Source of the DNA: Linderina pennispora
Taxonomy: Eukaryota; Kickxellomycota; Kickxellomycetes; Kickxellales; Kickxellaceae
Direction: 5' to 3'
Length of the DNA: 64,000 nt
Assembly: GCF_002104995.1 (NCBI RefSeq)
Contig: NW_024468256.1
Location: 82,001 to 146,000 of the forward strand
The notes under the pieces: model-generated
The model's database searches: none
What the model saw: the letters and a program-made list of their open reading frames with translations, nothing else
What the model was told of the DNA's origin: nothing
Translations under genes and position numbers: made by a program
Shown here: in pieces, positions 30,038-46,285 of the stretch
How positions within the stretch are numbered: the first letter of the stretch is position 1
Layout: each line of letters begins with the position of its first letter

Positions 30038-31984
30038 ATGACGGCAGGCAGATCCCAGCAGCGGCTTTCCAGCATCGAAATCGAACGGCTTTCGGAAGTT
30101 TTTGACACACATGCAACCGTTGCATCGGATGGGGCAAAATACCTGACACCAGACGGCTTTACGCGGGCGATCACACCGGCATTGCACCAGCAGCAGCAGT
30201 CTTCTTATTCGGCCTTTTTCTCCGTAGCCGATAAGCATGCTTCAGGCCGGGTTTCCAAGGATGAGTTCCTAGAGTTCCAAAGCCTGCTAGTGCGTCACGA
30301 CGCAGCCTCCAGCCTGTCGTTCAAGGCTGTCACGCAGTCTGATTCGGCGGCAGCCCCCGCCTTGGGCGCGCTCATTGGTGACTCGCTGATTGCCAATTAC
30401 CTGAAGAGCCAGGGCCAGGTTTCGTATGCCGAGTTTGCCCAGCTCGTGGAGTCTGTGCGGGCCGACCGCATCCGCCAGGCATTCGCGGCTGTCGACAGAG
30501 AAAAGACCGGCTTCATCCAGGTCGACCAGCTGGTGGCTACCGCCAGCGAGTTCACCCCCGTGGCAGTGCAGAGTACGCTGGCGGAGAGACTGGCGCTGGT
30601 GGCGACCGAGGGCAAGGTTGGATACCCGACATTCCTCGCTGTTGTCAGTCTGCTGAGCGACCCGACCAAGATCGCCCATGCCGCTGCCGAGGTCGCAAAG
30701 GCGCCAAGCCAGATTTCTGCTAGCGAATTCGCCGCCACCACTGACATCCTGACGCCGCTCGAGGCCAGCGTGCTGTTCACGCTTGCCAGCGGCCAGGCCG
30801 GCGCCGAGACGGCAACCACAGCCAGCATCACAGGAATCCTGGACTCCCTGCACGACAGCCTGGTGCCTGCAGGCCGGAAATCCGACGTACCCATCACGCA
30901 CAAGAAGCCCGAGCGTACGCTATTGATGGAGCTGCTGTTCCAGGCGTACAACTTTGGCGTCGGTGCCATTGCCGGTGGAATTGGCGCGACTGTCGTCTAC
31001 CCGATCGACCTGGTCAAGACGCGTATGCAAAACCAGCGGGCGGCTGTGGTCGGTGAAATGATGTACAAGAACAGCATTGACTGCTTCAAAAAGGTCATCC
31101 GCAACGAGGGCATTCTCGGCTTGTACCGCGGGCTGGGCCCGCAGCTCGTCGGCGTGGCACCCGAGAAGGCCATCAAGCTGACCATGAACGACTTTGTGCG
31201 CTCGCGCATGAAGAACAAGGATACTGGCGAGATCACCTTTGCGGCCGAGCTGCTGGCTGGTGCAGCCGCTGGAGGCTCGCAAGTGGTGTTCACGAACCCG
31301 CTGGAGATCGTCAAGATCCGCCTCCAGACGCAGGGCGAGATGCTCAAGGATGCGACTGGGCTGGGCGCCAAGGCTACCGGAACCTCGCCGGCTGTGCGGC
31401 GCGGCGCCATCACCATCGTCAAGGAGCTGGGTCTGATGGGCCTGTACAAGGGTGCCTCGGCCTGTCTGCTGCGCGACGTGCCATTCTCGGCCATTTACTT
31501 CCCGTGCTACTCGCACCTGAAGAAGGATCTGTTCCACGAGGGCGAGCGCGAGCTCAGCATCACCGACCTGCTGCTGGCTGGTGCCATCGCTGGCATGCCA
31601 GCAGCCTACTTTACCACGCCTGCCGATGTCATCAAGACACGTCTACAGGTTGAGGCAAAGAAGGGTGAGACCGTCTACACCGGCCTGATGGACGCCGCGC
31701 GCAAGATCTACAAGGAGGAGGGCTTCAAGGCCTTTTTCAAGGGCGGCCCGGCGCGCATCCTGCGGTCGTCGCCGCAGTTCGGCACCACGCTCATGTGCTA
31801 CGAGCTGATCCACCGCATGGTGCCGTTCCCGGGCGAGGAGACACATAAGCGCAGGGATGTGGGCGAGGAGCGCGCCCGTGAGGTGTCGTCGCAGATGGCG
31901 CTGTTCAACGCTAGCAACGCGCTGCGCCTGATGCACGACGGGAACTACAAGTTTGGTGCCATGCCGAAGACTACCACTGCCTAA
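30038..31984 (+). CDS. AGC1: Mitochondrial aspartate/glutamate carrier (aralar/citrin type)
   Basis: Inner-membrane antiporter exchanging aspartate for glutamate, part of the malate-aspartate shuttle. 648 residues. The N-terminal about 290 residues are the regulatory EF-hand-like domain facing the intermembrane space (for example [20 protein letters not shown] and [16 protein letters not shown]). Three mitochondrial carrier repeats follow, with signature motifs [10 protein letters not shown] (about 322), [11 protein letters not shown] (about 421) and [11 protein letters not shown] (about 528). The EF hands are degenerate, as in yeast Agc1, so calcium control is uncertain. The ATG at 30038 (ACCATGAC) starts the conserved domain; the frame is open upstream but reads non-coding leader. 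The 3' end faces the Fanzor gene, 196 bp away. Confidence 0.93.
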
Positions 31985-32180
31985 AACCGAAATGCCCTTT
32001 TTTGCTTTTGTTTATTGATAGAGTTTTACTAGAATTGCTCTGCTCGCGATGCGAGCTCGACTGCTAGTCAGCATGGGTTGACACGTCGATACGAGCATCA
32101 CGGCGAGCCGGTCATTTGAACGTGTCGGATGGTTGTTGGTGCAATATCGACCATGGGCATCTCCCACCTTGGTGGTCTGC
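31985..32180 (-). ncRNA. Candidate OMEGA (guide) RNA region of the Fanzor locus
   Basis: Fanzor and TnpB guide RNAs are known to be transcribed from the 3' end and downstream flank of the nuclease gene, running to the transposon end, with the guide taken from the flanking DNA. Here that zone is the 196 bp between the Fanzor stop (32181) and the AGC1 stop (31984), read on the minus strand. It contains a perfect 6-bp stem with 3-nt loop (GCTCGC-GAT-GCGAGC, 32042-32056). The position is family-based inference. The exact ends and fold are unknown. Confidence 0.3.
32042..32056. repeat. Short perfect inverted repeat (hairpin)
   Basis: GCTCGC / GCGAGC arms around GAT, between the convergent AGC1 and Fanzor 3' ends. 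It could be a hairpin in a 3' UTR or in the Fanzor guide-RNA scaffold. Confidence 0.5.
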
Positions 32181-33851
32181 TCAGCGCAGGCGCTTCAGCG
32201 GTGGCTCGCCACTACTGGCAGCAGAACCGCCTGCTGCTGCACGCCTCTTGCGCGACCTCTTTGTTGCAGGAGTGGTGCCAGAAGCATCGGCAGCAATGGC
32301 CGTAAAGCGATGGAACCGTTCAAGAATACTGTCTGAATCACAGAGTGACTGGAAAATGAGTCTGAAGTTTAGAACTGCTGCGAGATCGCGGTTCAAGAGC
32401 TGAGACGAATAGGCTCGCCTGTATTGTGTCATGGCCCGCTTACATGACTCGCTTGTACAGCGGAGAAGGCCATGGCACTTCACAGTTGGGTTCTTCGATC
32501 TCTTGTGGGGCCGCGGGTTGGGAACATGCCGGAATGTCTGCTGCGACTTTTCGCAGCAGAACGGGCACATCGACGGTGTCCAGAATTCGTCGATCAGATA
32601 GACTTCAAAGCCATGGTGCTTGAACTTGTCACACCATCCCTTGCCACGAATCGGCGCATGGTGTCGGGCCATCGGCGCACTCCAATTGCCCATGATCAGC
32701 ACTGGATCTGGGCCGAACTTGCTCCGGAGTTTCGCGGCAAGCCTGTGGTCTGCACGGGCCTGGTTCATGAATGAATCAAGGCGCAGCTTGCGGTGAAGCG
32801 GGTACACCTTGGGACTGGTACTGACACCTGGATGGGCCTTCCAGCGCCTTTGGTGCTGCTTGTTTGACTTAGTGGGCTGCTGCTCTGGTAACCTTCGCGC
32901 TGTCATCGTGTTGGCATAAAACGGTGCTAGGACACACCGCACAGATGCATGGGCAGTAACGTAGGCACGGAATTTTGCTGGGCTAAGGGTCCGGCTGCAG
33001 TGCTTGGAAAGCTCTGCCTCTGCTCTGCGGACAGCATCTTCTGGGACTTGATCCTTTGTAGCCTGACGAATCCTGTCATAGTGGCGCAGCTTGAGCTCCT
33101 TATTGCGCTGCTGCCGTGTGTAGCGGTAGAGCATTTTTTCACCTTCTTTCCCATTGCTGCTATTTTCGTGCATCATGTATAGCAAATTGCCCCGACCTGG
33201 ATCGATGAATACACAGCGGCCTTTCAGATTCTGCAGCTCTGGCTGTGGGATCTGGTGGATATAGCGACAGTCAGCTATAGTATTGCCTCCCGCAGCATTG
33301 CCTCCCACAGCATTGCCTCCCGCAGCATCAGCATCTACTGCAGCACCAGCCTTAGGTACCTTGTCTTGTAGCAAAATCCATATTGTTACACCATCTGTTG
33401 TCGCCATTCCGTGGAATCTTCTATCACCATGCGCCTTAAATGGCTTTGATGTTAGATCTGCAACCCGGCCCCACACATCCCACACAGATTGTGTGATCCC
33501 TTGGACTGTGTCGTGTGCATAGACTGGGAGTGCTGGTGCATATTCATTGTTAAGTACTGCAACAGTGTCTGCTGCTGCCGCCGATGCAGCAGCAAGTGGA
33601 TTTGCCTTCATGTTATGATAGATAAATAAATAAGTAGAACAAAAGAATCCCTTTTTCACAAATGTTGCAGGGTCAAAGGCATCATTGTCAGCTAGTTGAT
33701 GGAGTAGTATCCATCGTGCAAGCATGTATGTATGCTCTTTGATGATATTGACGCTGCGTACAAATTGCTCTAGGCGGGGCAACATAGAATCACGGAAGCC
33801 AATCCCACCAAGTGATGTCTTTATGACAGTAGTGCTGCGGGTAATGTTCAT
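32181..33851 (-). CDS. Fanzor, eukaryotic TnpB-like RNA-guided nuclease
   Basis: 556 residues, intronless. The C-terminal half has the split RuvC fold of TnpB/Fanzor. RuvC-I is CVFIDPGRGNLLYM with Asp217. VYLIDEFWTPSMCPFC puts Glu422 beside a zinc ribbon (Cys429/Cys432 with Cys465/Cys470 in GLLRCTSESC), as in the rearranged active site of Fanzors. RuvC-III is LLNRDLAAVLNF with Asp489. All three acidic positions are present, so the nuclease looks intact. The C-terminus has basic clusters (KRSRKRR, PLKRLR) typical of nuclear localisation. Family members are RNA-guided DNA endonucleases carried by transposons. Residues 178-191 are a Gly/Asn/Ala repeat. Codon third positions are more A/T-rich than in flanking genes, suggesting mobile origin. 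No partner transposase is seen. Confidence 0.88.
   Translation of the reverse strand: MNITRSTTVIKTSLGGIGFRDSMLPRLEQFVRSVNIIKEHTYMLARWILLHQLADNDAFDPATFVKKGFFCSTYLFIYHNMKANPLAAASAAAADTVAVLNNEYAPALPVYAHDTVQGITQSVWDVWGRVADLTSKPFKAHGDRRFHGMATTDGVTIWILLQDKVPKAGAAVDADAAGGNAVGGNAAGGNTIADCRYIHQIPQPELQNLKGRCVFIDPGRGNLLYMMHENSSNGKEGEKMLYRYTRQQRNKELKLRHYDRIRQATKDQVPEDAVRRAEAELSKHCSRTLSPAKFRAYVTAHASVRCVLAPFYANTMTARRLPEQQPTKSNKQHQRRWKAHPGVSTSPKVYPLHRKLRLDSFMNQARADHRLAAKLRSKFGPDPVLIMGNWSAPMARHHAPIRGKGWCDKFKHHGFEVYLIDEFWTPSMCPFCCEKSQQTFRHVPNPRPHKRSKNPTVKCHGLLRCTSESCKRAMTQYRRAYSSQLLNRDLAAVLNFRLIFQSLCDSDSILERFHRFTAIAADASGTTPATKRSRKRRAAAGGSAASSGEPPLKRLR
33282..33326 (-). repeat. 15-bp tandem repeat inside Fanzor gene (3 units)
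   Basis: Three copies of ATTGCCTCCCGCAGC (the middle one has a single G-to-A change, reading CCCACAGC). Together they encode a GGNA-type linker at about residues 178-191, just before the RuvC-I segment. The repeat is in-frame and probably length-variable between copies of the gene. Confidence 0.85.
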
Positions 33852-34470
33852 TTGAGAAATTCAATAGGCAAGTAAGAAGAGAAATGATGCTGTTCAGTTT
33901 TGCTTTATTGCGTATGCATAGCATTAAAAACTTTTTATTAAAAATGATCTGGCTTGCATGGTTCTTGGGGCCCTTAGCACTGATATAGTCTCTTGAATCA
34001 GTCTATACATACTGGGTCCGTTGTGACCCAAATACTACCGCTTACGCATGTTCATAAGACAAATTAATTTATAAAATAAGTCCACAAATATTGCATAACC
34101 ACCAGAGGAGCTACATGGCCTCATTCAATAGGTGCTCATAAATAAACATCCTAAGAGTGTTGCGCAGCCGGTGATGACCACCATGATGACGCCATAGAAG
34201 TTATCAGGCCGACCGACAATGAGACCAGCTCTTGCGCTGAACCAATGGAGATATCTAGTGGAGACCTGTGGCCACTACAATAACAACTTGTCACCCTGGT
34301 TTCACCGATAAGGTCAGATGCCGCACAAGATCAAAAGGAGTTTACGGAGCAAGTCACCTAAACCCGTGTTGACGCTTAAGAGTTTTATTTTTTAACCAAA
34401 TAAAAAATTTCTAGCGGACGGTCAGACACTTCGACTATAAAATCTTATATATAGGTAAAGATTGCGTGTG
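33852..34470. other. AT-rich non-coding region upstream of Fanzor
   Basis: No gene is seen. Contains GGGTC-CGTTGT-GACCC (34014-34029), a 5-bp-stem hairpin, and AT-rich tracts at about 33925-33945 and 34380-34410. It probably holds the Fanzor promoter and the left end of its element. Confidence 0.45.
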
Positions 34471-35214
34471 TTACGACATAAAGTGGTCGCCCAGTGCGCG
34501 CATAATGTTCAGCGACCGCTTCATCACATTGGCCGACACGCCGACAGCGCCTTCGACGAGCTCAAACGAGCTGACCAGCATCTGGTGCGAGTGCTTGTGG
34601 ATTGTGTTGATGGACTCGCGCACCGTAAACTGCACCATGCTCAGCGGGCACACCAGATACGTCACCCCCATCGTATGCATCACACCGCTGAATCCCATGG
34701 CCGTATACGTTGCGTCCACAACATATTCAATTTCAAGCGGCGGCGATTCACGCAGGTTCCGGCACTTGCTCATCAGGTCGCCGAAAATCCGCATATCTGT
34801 GTCCCGCCGCATATCGTAATTGAAGTCGACCTTCTGCACAAACACTGTGTTCCCGCGCTTCTCCAGAATACGGTCATGCACTGTCGTGCGGAATATAAAC
34901 TGCTCTGTGCCCTTCAGCCGCCCCCGCAAGTGTACTGTGTCTACATGCACTGTAACCAGGTTGGGATTGTACACCGTTATCTCTAATGGCAACTTCAGGT
35001 CAATTGTCTGGTGTCTCACTTGCACATCAGAAGGCTCCGTGCCTGGAATGCCCGACAGATAGATTTGCGGTGGCAGCCGTAGGTACTTTACGTAGAACGC
35101 TGTGCTAGCAACTGCCAGACACACAATCATTAGCGCTTGCATTAACTGGGCCTGCCATGAATGCAACACTGGTTTATATGGCTTTGATTTTAGCTTTTTC
35201 ATAGTGGCTTTCAT
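34471..35214 (-). CDS. LEA2-like single-pass membrane protein
   Basis: 247 residues from the ATG at 35214 (MKATMKKLKSKPYKPV). A longer open frame upstream reads hydrophobic, non-conserved sequence and was not used. A basic N-terminus precedes one membrane helix (QALMIVCLAVASTAFYVKYL). The lumenal domain is a beta-rich LEA2/DUF3712-like fold: LPLEITVYNPNLVTVHVDTV is the typical late-embryogenesis-abundant type 2 core strand pattern. Fungal members sit in the vacuolar or ER membrane, with roles poorly defined. The assignment rests on this motif and topology; function is unknown. It is co-oriented with and downstream of the tRNA, and upstream of the Fanzor locus. Confidence 0.7.
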   Translation of the reverse strand: MKATMKKLKSKPYKPVLHSWQAQLMQALMIVCLAVASTAFYVKYLRLPPQIYLSGIPGTEPSDVQVRHQTIDLKLPLEITVYNPNLVTVHVDTVHLRGRLKGTEQFIFRTTVHDRILEKRGNTVFVQKVDFNYDMRRDTDMRIFGDLMSKCRNLRESPPLEIEYVVDATYTAMGFSGVMHTMGVTYLVCPLSMVQFTVRESINTIHKHSHQMLVSSFELVEGAVGVSANVMKRSLNIMRALGDHFMS

Positions 35215-35509
35215 ATATGTGATAGAAACTATAATTAAGCGGAAGTAGAGAAGGAAACATGCGACCTCGCTAGCTCTTGGCGTCAAAATATATATCTGGA
35301 GAAGTAAAAACATGCGCCTGTCGCTTTTGGGGCGGCACTGGGGACATCTACTGTGACGCCAGTCGTCTATGAGTACAGCGCCTCCAAAAACAATACTGCT
35401 TCCGACCTTGCTGTTGGCATAGTGCAGTGTCTATTGGTTAGCAGCATTTCCAAAACCCTTAGTTGTAGAAAAGACAAAAGCATGCAGCTGAGAAAAAGAA
35501 GCAAAAAAG

Positions 35510-35582
35510 CGACCGATCACGGGATCGAACCGTGGACTTCTCGCATCGGAAACGAGCGCTCTAGCCTCTGAGCTAAGCGGCC
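35510..35582 (-). tRNA. tRNA-Arg (anticodon CCG)
   Basis: A 73-nt cloverleaf is readable on the minus strand: D stem GCTC/GAGC, anticodon stem CTCGT/GCGAG with loop TTCCGAT (anticodon CCG, codon CGG), a 5-nt variable region, and T stem CACGG/CCGTG with loop TTCGATC. The acceptor pairs 6 of 7 (one C-T mismatch, one G-T wobble). There is no intron and no encoded CCA. A T run follows the 3' end, as for Pol III termination. It is identical to the copy at 46095. Confidence 0.93.
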
Positions 35583-36115
35583 TAAGCCTTAACGGCTAAC
35601 ACATCTGAATATTCCTGGAAATTCACTCCTATATTATGTTACGCATTAGCCTGCCCTCCATTGCCTCCTTTGTTTGGCAAAACCAACCTCCTAGCAATCC
35701 ACAGCTTTGTTTATCATGCCCCTGATGGCTGATCTTTAACAGCCTCTACAGTTCTGCACATTGTGGTTCCCATATTGCTACTCGCAACTCTTTGTTGATA
35801 AACTGGATATCCATTACACATATCTACCAGGATTCCATATACGTTGTTTTGTAGTTGTTTTGTAGTCATTTTGATTACTAGTCGGACGTATCACTACTGC
35901 GGTGTATGCTTTATCTCATGGGTCGATGCTAGACTATTTTCCCATTATTTTCATGTCTGCTCCAGGAGTTCAGCGCCAGATGTGCTTTACATATCAGTTA
36001 ACCACATGTGGCACATTCTTATCAACCAGCTAAGGCAAGTGCATTTCATGGTTGAAAATTTGAAGCAGCGTGAGCACTTAACAGGTAACTGTGGACAAGA
36101 ATCTACAGGAACAAT
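35583..36115. other. Intergenic, tRNA to NMA111
   Basis: No gene found. The first about 20 bp (TTAGCCGTTAACGGCT-like tRNA leader) are shared with the other tRNA-Arg copy. The rest is AT-rich spacer and the NMA111 3' flank. Confidence 0.5.
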
Positions 36116-39067
36116 TTAAATTGCCTCCCATCTCCACTTGGCGTCAACGCTATTTCCTCGAACCCTCTGCCAAGCTTGGAGATAGTGATCGTCAGTGCGG
36201 AACTTGTACACATAAACGATTCCCTTGGTGTCAACCAAACGGAACTTCACATCACAGCCCGGTGGTGATGTGATACTTCTGCCAAGAGTACCCGCTGCGA
36301 CTGCTGCATTAAAGCCAGAGTCGCTTCCCTTGAACCGGCAAATTATTCTCACCAGATCGTCCATATCCTCGACTTTCTCGTCATTGACCTCAGTAATGAA
36401 GGCAGGCCAGTTTTTCATCCAGCGGGCTGGGGACCCAGCAGCGATTCCATAGATAAGACACTTGGAGGGAACAGAGTGTGCATATCGATATATGCTGACA
36501 TAGGGCTCCTGAATGGTAAGTCCAGACCATCTTAGAACGCGACGGGTGTTGGTCTCGTGGGGAGGGACTGTTCTGACAGTGATTGCAACCTCCTGGCCCT
36601 GGCGCAATATAACAAGATCGACTGCATCCTTTCCGTATATCGTGGCAATATCGTCGATTCTACTCACTAGCTTGCCGTCAATAGACAAGATAATATCGCC
36701 GACCTCAACTCCGGGAGATTTCACCGCGCTCTTGATGTCGATTTGGTGAACCTGGAACAAGCAATTTCCACAGGCTGGGCTGGCAGCAAATTTCTCAACC
36801 CATCTGCTGGTGAGTCCAAACTTGCAGGCTGTCGAGAGTCGGACCTTGGCAAACTTTGCGTTCAGCGTTCTCACAATATCCGGGTACTCGTTGCTCGACC
36901 TTAACGCCTTGGTAATCTCGCGGAGATGCGAGACATCTAGCCCAACTAATGGATCAGGATTGTGCCTGTTGCCGCAGAGAGGCAAATGAATCCAAAGCCC
37001 TAGAGCATAGCCATCAGCACTGCATAATACACCCGCCATACTCTCTGAATCGCGAGCTGTGGCAAGGCTGACAAGATCCACATTGAAGTGTGATGGAGAA
37101 TAGTGCTTCTTGCAGTGCTTAGTGCCGTCGTAGAGGTACCGATCGCTGATGTGTGTCTTTGTGAAATACGGGGATCCATTTTTGTTGGCGCCAACGAGAA
37201 CAACATCTTGGCCGACAGTAAGACAGGCCTCGCCTCCCCAGTAGTTGCTGTCGACAGGGAGGTCGCTCACCAAGCCATTTCCAGCGGGGCCGAGATCAGA
37301 AGGGTCATACTTGAGGAAGATCAGTGGATACAACGGGTGAATATACACTATAGTTGCTGCGGTCTGGAAAGTGTTGCGGATGGTAATTGAGATGTTGGAT
37401 GCTGATCCAGTGAACACTGCAGCACTGCATACAACAATTCCGTTTGACCTGTCAAGGACAACCCCATTTCCGTCTACAGTTCCCTCACATGTCTCATCCA
37501 TGCTGCCATCACGACTGCTTGTGATATGAACGATACTCTGCCAAACCCGGTCCAAATTAGAGTGACCATCCACAAGATGACCGTCAGTGAAGCCGAGATG
37601 AGGAATACTGCCGCCCATGTCTTGCAAATCGCCTCGAATAGCACCACTGCACATCTCGATCCGCTCTTCAGACCAAAATCCGCTCTCTATATCTCGCGTG
37701 AGCACTCTAAACGGCCCAGAATCCCCTGGAAGCGTAGCGATGGTAATAATATGATCGTTACCATTAATATGACCAATAGCCTTGATAACCATGGACTGAC
37801 CGACTTGGATGGTACGGAATATACTCAGAAGCGCTGTGAGATCCGGGGTAGGTATACCGTTCACAGACATGATGATGCGATGCTCCTTAAAGATGGTCGC
37901 AGGTAGAAACTCCTCAGACATGGTTGCAATATATACGCCCTTAACCTCTAGAGAATATCTGTTGGCCAGCATCAGGGACATATCATGGAGCGTAGCATGC
38001 CCAAGAGAAAGGAGCTGGGTAGGTGAGACGTCATACATGTCCTGCACTCGAACCGAGACAGGAACAGACCTGCCCTTGCGCCAAACGACGAAATCAACAG
38101 TGCAGCCAATATTGGCATCCAGCACTGACTCCAAACCAACGAAATCGCAGATAGGCTTGCCATCCATACTGATGACAATGTCGCCGACTTCGAGAGCCCC
38201 GTACGCTGGGCCCTTGTGCAGAATCTTGTCAACAACTATCATGCCCTCGGACTTTGGGTTAGCCAGGCGAGACTCCTCGATTTCCTGCTCTGCCAGCCCC
38301 AGGCGCTGCACTTCCTGATACGTCTCGAATACAAACACCGCCTGGATAGTTCCGCGGGGGGCGCGCTCGCCACGCCTCATGTACTCGAGTGAATACACAA
38401 CCCGCTCAAGCGGCAAGAAGAAGCTTCCACCGTCATTGACGTTCTTAGCCGCCTTGATTGCAATTGCAGCTCCGTTGATATCCAGCAATGGTGAACCCGA
38501 AGAGCCTCCAGCCGAAGTGGTGGAGGCTTGATAGTAAAATGTGTTTGAATCTCGATTGTCACCCACATTAGGCGTATTCCGGTTGATCTGGGACAGAGTG
38601 CCCGCGCAAACTGTCATCTTCTCTCCAGCAGAATTGCCGATAATTTGGAAAGGAACACCTGGCCTTGCACCTGCAGGGAACAGCCTAATTGCCTTCGGCT
38701 GGGTGTACTTCAATGCCGCAGGGTCGTAGCGGAAGAAGGCAAAATCGTGGATTGGGTCGTAGTGAACTGGCTGGAGGTAAACGAACTCATTCGTGTCGAA
38801 CGTGGCTTTGTGGATTCCTGGGCCAAATTCAAGGACGTGCCTGTTCGAGAGAATGATCCCCTGGTCGCTATCGACTACAAACCCAGTAGCACATGAGCAT
38901 GTTGGTCCAACGGCCCCAAACCCAAATGGACGGATGATACTGATTGCCACAATAGAGTTTCGAACTTCAGCATGGACATCCTCCCACGTACGCCCAAGGC
39001 TTCTGGTGGGAGCAGGCGTGGTTGAAGAGTGCGGGTGCGGGTGCTCGTTGATGGTGTCAATAGTCAT
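36116..39067 (-). CDS. NMA111: NMA111, HtrA-like pro-apoptotic serine protease
   Basis: 983 residues, intronless, close to yeast Nma111 (about 997). It has two HtrA-type halves. The first has an intact trypsin-like triad: His77 in LSNRHVLEF, Asp108 in YDPIHDFAFF, Ser190 in AGGSSGSPLL. PDZ domains follow (YGALEVGDIVISMDGKPICD and later VEVGDIILSIDGKLVSRI). The second protease half is degenerate and presumably inactive, as in the family. Yeast Nma111 is nuclear, cleaves the inhibitor-of-apoptosis protein Bir1 and affects lipid homeostasis. The first ATG matches the expected N-terminus before SLGRTWEDVHAEVRNSIV. Function here is by homology. Confidence 0.95.
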   Translation of the reverse strand: MTIDTINEHPHPHSSTTPAPTRSLGRTWEDVHAEVRNSIVAISIIRPFGFGAVGPTCSCATGFVVDSDQGIILSNRHVLEFGPGIHKATFDTNEFVYLQPVHYDPIHDFAFFRYDPAALKYTQPKAIRLFPAGARPGVPFQIIGNSAGEKMTVCAGTLSQINRNTPNVGDNRDSNTFYYQASTTSAGGSSGSPLLDINGAAIAIKAAKNVNDGGSFFLPLERVVYSLEYMRRGERAPRGTIQAVFVFETYQEVQRLGLAEQEIEESRLANPKSEGMIVVDKILHKGPAYGALEVGDIVISMDGKPICDFVGLESVLDANIGCTVDFVVWRKGRSVPVSVRVQDMYDVSPTQLLSLGHATLHDMSLMLANRYSLEVKGVYIATMSEEFLPATIFKEHRIIMSVNGIPTPDLTALLSIFRTIQVGQSMVIKAIGHINGNDHIITIATLPGDSGPFRVLTRDIESGFWSEERIEMCSGAIRGDLQDMGGSIPHLGFTDGHLVDGHSNLDRVWQSIVHITSSRDGSMDETCEGTVDGNGVVLDRSNGIVVCSAAVFTGSASNISITIRNTFQTAATIVYIHPLYPLIFLKYDPSDLGPAGNGLVSDLPVDSNYWGGEACLTVGQDVVLVGANKNGSPYFTKTHISDRYLYDGTKHCKKHYSPSHFNVDLVSLATARDSESMAGVLCSADGYALGLWIHLPLCGNRHNPDPLVGLDVSHLREITKALRSSNEYPDIVRTLNAKFAKVRLSTACKFGLTSRWVEKFAASPACGNCLFQVHQIDIKSAVKSPGVEVGDIILSIDGKLVSRIDDIATIYGKDAVDLVILRQGQEVAITVRTVPPHETNTRRVLRWSGLTIQEPYVSIYRYAHSVPSKCLIYGIAAGSPARWMKNWPAFITEVNDEKVEDMDDLVRIICRFKGSDSGFNAAVAAGTLGRSITSPPGCDVKFRLVDTKGIVYVYKFRTDDHYLQAWQRVRGNSVDAKWRWEAI

Positions 39068-46094: not shown

Positions 46095-46167
46095 GGCCGC
46101 TTAGCTCAGAGGCTAGAGCGCTCGTTTCCGATGCGAGAAGTCCACGGTTCGATCCCGTGATCGGTCG
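46095..46167 (+). tRNA. tRNA-Arg (anticodon CCG), second copy
   Basis: Identical 73-nt sequence to the copy at 35510-35582, in the opposite orientation: anticodon CCG in loop TTCCGAT, same D and T arms, same imperfect acceptor pairing. A run of five T follows directly, a normal Pol III terminator. About 19 bp before the gene (TGTTAGCCGTTAAGGCTTA) are also shared, so the duplicated block includes the leader. Confidence 0.93.
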
Positions 46168-46285
46168 CTTTTTGCACTTTTGCAGTCGATGCGTATCGAC
46201 ATGTGGATATGCTTTTACTCTTTGAATCTCATAGATGGTACGAATGCTACATTTAAAGGTGTCCACGACGAGGCCACAACTTGTT

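Follow-up and report, generated by a model that had tools for sequence, protein, structure and literature searches.

A probably inert, internally deleted member of a Fanzor1-carrying, non-autonomous Helitron-type family in a Kickxellales-like fungus

In the window, the 64,000-nucleotide stretch of fungal DNA analysed here, we find what is very probably an internal-deletion copy from a non-autonomous, Fanzor1-bearing Helitron family, and this copy is itself probably inert (Table 1). The family reaches high copy number in a Kickxellales-like fungus, and its intact sister copies encode a full-length Fanzor1 of about 860 residues under purifying selection; a RepHel Helitron with the same kind of 5′ terminus probably mobilises it in trans. 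One in-frame deletion would then have removed the REC region, and the deleted set, now at seven places, would have spread as passive DNA, the junction and the broken frames being what is observed. A protein made from the window copy would keep the RuvC/zinc-ribbon half; having lost the REC residues that contact the TAM and the heteroduplex, it should not cut RNA-guided targets.

Table 1. Features of the deleted Fanzor1 copy and its element in the window
Feature	Position	Strand	Details and basis
Whole element: non-autonomous, Helitron-type, carrying the deleted Fanzor1 gene	32029..34461	-	2433 bp; blastn ends, empty site
Helitron-type 5′ terminus TCTTTACCTATATATAAGATTTTATAG	34435..34461	-	exact ends; likeness to the RepHel 5′ end in L041
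Internal-deletion junction; 277 codons (about 0.83 kb) lost, encoding residues 85-361 in the full-length protein	33598..33604	-	alignments; junction search
Internally deleted Fanzor1 reading frame	32181..33851	-	556 aa; ORF listing, translation, sequence match
RuvC-I Asp217 codon	33201..33203	-	translation and homologue alignment
Catalytic Glu422 codon, beside zinc ribbon	32586..32588	-	translation and homologue alignment
RuvC-III Asp489 codon	32385..32387	-	translation and homologue alignment
3′ subterminal hairpin GCTCGC-ATC-GCGAGC	32042..32056	-	five pairs kept in 28 or 29 of 29 copies
CTAG at the 3′ terminus, consistent with Helitron CTRR, then TA	32029..32032	-	end alignments

Much of what the original prediction described is there. 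The ORF listing bears out its uninterrupted frame, which is encoded by the minus strand (read on the plus strand, the interval contains 17 stops), and the catalytic residues that it named occupy conserved columns in an alignment of 34 homologues taken from 76 matches: position 217 is Asp in 34/34, position 422 is Glu in 33 of 33 letters and position 489 is Asp in 29 of 32 letters. The named homologues come from Coemansia and the Mucorales, plus one short, weak match from Kickxella. In alignments the three residues line up with the active sites of the Fanzor1s of Parasitella parasitica (PpFz1) and Spizellomyces punctatus (SpuFz1, where they correspond to D383/E541/D606; PMC10432273, in extract), so that the RuvC D...E...D is present. 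Translation also yields the predicted CPFC zinc-ribbon cysteines and basic C terminus; the C4 ribbon comprises C429 (Cys in 33/33 homologues), C432 (32/33), C465 (31/32) and C470 (26/31). Assignment to the Fanzor family holds as well, the nearest solved relatives being Fanzor1s both by sequence and by predicted fold: the window protein is Fanzor1-derived. The TnpB profile (NCBIfam guided_TnpB, NF040570) gave it 15.4 bits against a curated cut-off of 100 bits, and a Pfam scan returned no match at 1e-3 and two unrelated, chance-level matches up to E 10. Pfam scored the TNB domain at only 15.3 bits (cut-off 26.3) in two full-length sisters, and PF26935, precomputed for many homologues, was yet absent from scans of P0002, P0003 and P0020.

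Codons 85-361 of the full-length sister L028 are missing, in frame, from the window copy; a second difference from L028, at codons 457-481, maps to a Gly/Ala repeat that is variable. Among the 27 other loci read, 8 (L028-L035) contain the same start in an uninterrupted frame of 857-889 residues, and L015 has an 823-residue frame at the right place. Residues 7-78 of the window protein match positions 516-586 of the PpFz1 chain (PDB 9cf0) and the next match starts at residue 124, chain position 810, leaving 45 residues of the window protein against 223 in the PpFz1 chain; the part of the protein that matches most of the REC domain is thus absent. Residues 129-311 of the L028 protein align with 8gkh chain positions 519-688, or SpuFz1 125-294 when converted by equating the catalytic Asp. 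The SpuFz1 REC and WED contacts to the TAM and the heteroduplex are R96, Q129, Q130, N133, Q148, R157, R260, R268, S269 and R291 (PMC10432273, in extract), and in the alignment their counterparts all fall within the deleted segment, R96 being placed by extrapolation. By these alignments the WED and REC N-terminal part is missing from the window copy; it is present in the sisters and matched to solved structures. Other internal deletions occur in the family, one shared by L020 and L021 (element positions 1168-1792) and a third, separate one in L017.

The window copy also carries private changes at conserved sites: R407C, where 30 of 34 homologues have Arg, and S426P, where Ser stands in 31/33 and Pro in 2/33. 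The published Fanzor motif, D-X(125,275)-[TS]-[TS]-X-X-[C4]-X(5,50)-RD (PMC3627910, in extract), is matched by D217, T425, the zinc cysteines and R488-D489, but its [TS]-[TS] pair is broken by Pro426, where the full-length sisters L028-L035 have TSS. With the 277-codon deletion, both substitutions and this broken motif, the description of the gene as intact-looking, with all marks of a Fanzor, fails. Since the frame is open and the D/E/D triad, the zinc ribbon and a basic C terminus are present, the window protein might still be a complete, active compact Fanzor, as first proposed; against eight full-length sisters, however, 277 codons are absent, the counterparts of SpuFz1 R96, Q129, Q130, N133 and R291 appear to be lost (by alignment and extrapolation), and the deleted segment is under purifying selection in the intact copies, so that we hold this reading to be extremely improbable. 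The surviving catalytic residues and zinc ribbon may leave the window protein some residual nucleic-acid activity.

Pooling seven intact copies gave an omega of 0.33 (codon bootstrap 0.26-0.43), with 0.26 in residues 85-361, the segment deleted in the window copy, and 0.28 in residues 501-780; the full-length Fanzor1 frames of the intact sisters are under purifying selection. No such selection is visible in the changes private to the window copy relative to 22 family members, which comprise 26 nonsynonymous, 5 synonymous and 0 stop changes, against 20.7, 9.3 and 1.0 expected without selection under the same spectrum. Because unselected private substitutions would average only that 1.0 stop (an expectation for substitutions alone), we read the frame as still open by chance. 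In a second alignment, with five deleted sisters, window-only changes stood at 18 nonsynonymous to 3 synonymous against 14.3 to 6.1 expected, and those common to the window copy and a deleted sister at 6 to 2. Omega was 0.49 among ten copies grouped as decayed and 0.46 for window-intact pairs, values below 1 that we attribute to shared history before deletion or decay.

The deletion junction recurs at seven genome places including the window (four exact, two with one mismatch, one with two), a reversed-pattern control giving 0 matches. Five of the six other junction copies were read (L042, L043, L052, L053 and L054; C212:176098 was left out), and each lacks exactly codons 85-361 and has S363P in common with the window copy. 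The identical junction and S363P in all six point to a single origin of the deleted copies. As the frame is broken in all five sisters read, passive spread as DNA, with no intact frame, is the most likely history of the set; the 3′ flanks differ mutually among the four deleted copies read as far as the right end (the window copy, L052, L053 and L054). On a tree, the deleted copies (four rows) need two changes, and 36% of the bootstrap trees place them together to one side of a branch, a result that fits one origin or several. Near residue 232, L043 and L052 (L054 similarly) show a same-looking frameshift, GEKNALPLH, by eye an extra A in an A-run, and 21 of the family's 108 protein-level matches (lower-bound counts, with 78 of 476 candidates scored) start at residues 231-238, which suggests an amplified frameshifted lineage among the copies.

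Among transposases, derivatives with an internal deletion can act as repressors of their parents, and the REC-less window protein might be such a regulator, binding the family guide RNA through RuvC/TNB/WED and competing with full-length Fanzor. The deletion is in frame, the start codon and C-terminal half are kept, and solved Fanzor1 structures place the main RNA interface at RuvC/TNB and the RuvC-WED junction (PMC11423790, in extract). Against it, the frame is broken in all five other deleted copies read, the private changes of the window copy show no purifying selection, and R407C and S426P fall at conserved sites; we judge this role highly improbable.

When the window copy was compared by blastn with a first batch of 19 other loci, its right end was the same in 19 and its left end in 14. 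The element starts with 5′-TC and its hairpin stands 9 nt before the 3′-CTAG, as expected of Helitron ends; of 29 aligned copies, 28 have TA after their terminal CTAG or CTGG. A 37-mer of the 3′ end matched 200 times with up to three mismatches, and 0 times in reversed-pattern control. On contig C193, found as the second genome place matching the left flank of the window element, counterparts of window 31399-32028 (97.6%) and 34461-34803 (99.4%) lie 6 bp apart; the element is absent there, so the insertion differs between two homologous contigs. No TSD of at least 3 bp is visible at this one empty site; a few base differences in its sequence leave the exact target base ambiguous. An empty site for L016/L021 was also sought by pattern, with no match; both are homologous places that each carry the element. 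Short contigs (C193, C5 and C54) show 90-100% homology to segments of long contigs; two haplotypes, or recent duplications, are apparently present in the assembly, which would give natural empty sites. ATCTTT-like variable runs lie directly 5′ of the element in L010, L012, L017, L020, L034 and L041, possibly as footprints of aborted or repeated 5′-end insertions.

A candidate source of transposase is present in the same genome. PF14214 matches occur at 13 places (about seven loci), and the open pieces of the L041 RepHel element encode PF14214 and, separately, PIF1 domains. The element's 5′ end shares 81 bp with the start of the full-length sister L028 at 98.8% identity (88.9% with the window copy); its 3′ end has a hairpin of its own and CTGCTAG, on the same plan as the Fanzor-element 3′ ends (hairpin, CTAG) with sequences not closely alike. 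On the evidence of the shared ends, the family is probably trans-mobilised by RepHel. An alternative would make the element a non-Helitron transposon that resembles the RepHel 5′ end by chance or recombination: no RepHel frame lies among the ORFs inside the element, the 3′ ends of the two differ beyond the hairpin plan, and by eye a short 5′ palindrome (CTATA...TATAG) with T-rich 5′ surroundings recalls Helitron2 over classical Helitrons (no matching 3′ ATIR, a Helitron2 trait, was seen by eye). Such an origin would leave unexplained the 5′-TC, the 3′ hairpin with CTAG, the empty site without visible TSD and the 81 bp in L028, and we consider it very unlikely.

The 3′ end of the RepHel Helitron occurs eight times (up to three mismatches, a pattern search that diverged ends would escape), and in 8/8 (among L041, L044-L051 and L055) a family 5′ end follows directly. 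Seven of these abutting elements carry Fanzor, about 1.5 kb being read in six and one being interrupted after about 320 bp, and one carries other cargo behind the same 55-bp start; the RepHel CTAG is joined to TCTTTACC in five cases, to TTACC in one and to TACTT in two. The other cargo, at L045 (C2), has after the RepHel 3′ end a family 5′ end, about 0.65 kb of different sequence and a 3′ end of GACTAGCCGAGCTCGCATCGC...GTCTAG, and is apparently another non-autonomous family member. On contig C5 both the L041 left flank (90%, 427 columns) and the Fanzor of L041 (99.3%, 2330 bp) are present and RepHel is absent, which most simply means that RepHel entered the 5′ end of a resident element there; it may instead have been lost from C5. 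Among the RepHel 3′ segments (421 bp, eight copies) the differences number 1-10 bases, or 20-23 for L046; partner Fanzor modules (1.5 kb, six copies) differ by 12-91, and the two divergence matrices show no correlation (r 0.12; 239/720 permutations as high). On a tree, the six composites need two changes; they form one group in 36% of bootstrap trees and may have a single origin. Movement of RepHel and Fanzor as one composite unit was rejected as the sole explanation, given the uncorrelated divergences and the RepHel-free C5; L044, L049 and L051 could be unit-derived. The confinement of the RepHel copies found to such sites may reflect Rep binding to the 5′ terminus, or joined-end circles may recombine through the shared 80 bp. 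A third candidate, which we rate as very improbable, is Fanzor-guided homing by RepHel and Fanzor as a two-part system: the RepHel right-end flank, a family 5′ end at every site found, would serve as the Fanzor guide, and RNA-guided cleavage of unoccupied family 5′ ends would be followed by repair or invasion by RepHel.

The Fanzor1 of the intact sisters is presumably an RNA-guided nuclease that takes its RNA from the element 3′ end. The 3′ untranslated part shows 6.5% pairwise divergence against 6.7% at third codon positions, one 20-nt block (0.9%) being the only block more conserved. At the 3′ end we saw almost no covariation (1/25 pairs), its predicted stability was unremarkable (z -0.75), and Rfam at E 0.1 over 31500-36200 returned only a tRNA.

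Several neighbouring genes had been called degraded, a description not borne out by a scan of 12 neighbouring ORFs, from 87 others of at least 120 aa: eight have unremarkable domains (mitochondrial carrier, Nma111-type protease, P450/reductase, AMP-binding enzyme, THO2, GH31, RhoGEF and chitin synthase) and four have no Pfam match. Only the second half of the P450 profile is covered in the P450 ORF, from an intron or truncation. The nearest match of the Nma111 neighbour is from Linderina pennispora (63% over 68% of length), which points to a Kickxellales-like host. Two tRNA-Arg(CCG) genes lie at 35509-35582 (-) and 46095-46168 (+), one of them about 1 kb from the insertion.

A Fanzor1-carrying non-autonomous Helitron family is an already known kind of element. 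In the extract of Bao and Jurka (2013; PMC3627910), Chlamydomonas CRe-1, 2 and 3 are Fanzor1 genes in non-autonomous Helitron2 elements; like the present family, they carry Fanzor1 only, have a 5′ end matching an autonomous RepHel Helitron and no transposase of their own, and include numerous copies in which the interior is deleted and the 3′ end intact. Unlike those elements as described there, the present family has a fungal host, ends that look 5′-TC/CTAG and RepHel copies directly upstream of its members; TSDs accompany many CRe copies, whereas none is visible at the one empty site here. The SpuFz1 partial and 'ghost' loci likewise place many partial copies in one fungal genome, but SpuFz1 elements have inverted repeats, with no transposase found within them according to the extract of PMC10432273, where ours have Helitron-type ends. 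Among the fungal Helitrons, the Fusarium oxysporum FoHeli elements, as the extract of PMC5148889 has it, include a Helitron inserted immediately before the 5′ end of another, as well as copies that bear several 5′ termini; those are single cases, whereas all eight RepHel ends found here abut the family, with Fanzor elements as the usual neighbour. We found no report of a Fanzor in Linderina or Coemansia in the open-licence literature.

The window copy is thus probably inert, which corrects the claim of an intact nuclease, and the placement of RepHel is a more interesting by-product than the copy itself. With at least eight full-length Fanzor1 frames, deleted copies, insertions that differ between homologous contigs (one site being empty) and RepHel HUH transposase copies at Fanzor-element 5′ ends in one 26-Mb assembly, this family makes the role of Fanzor for a Helitron testable within a single organism.
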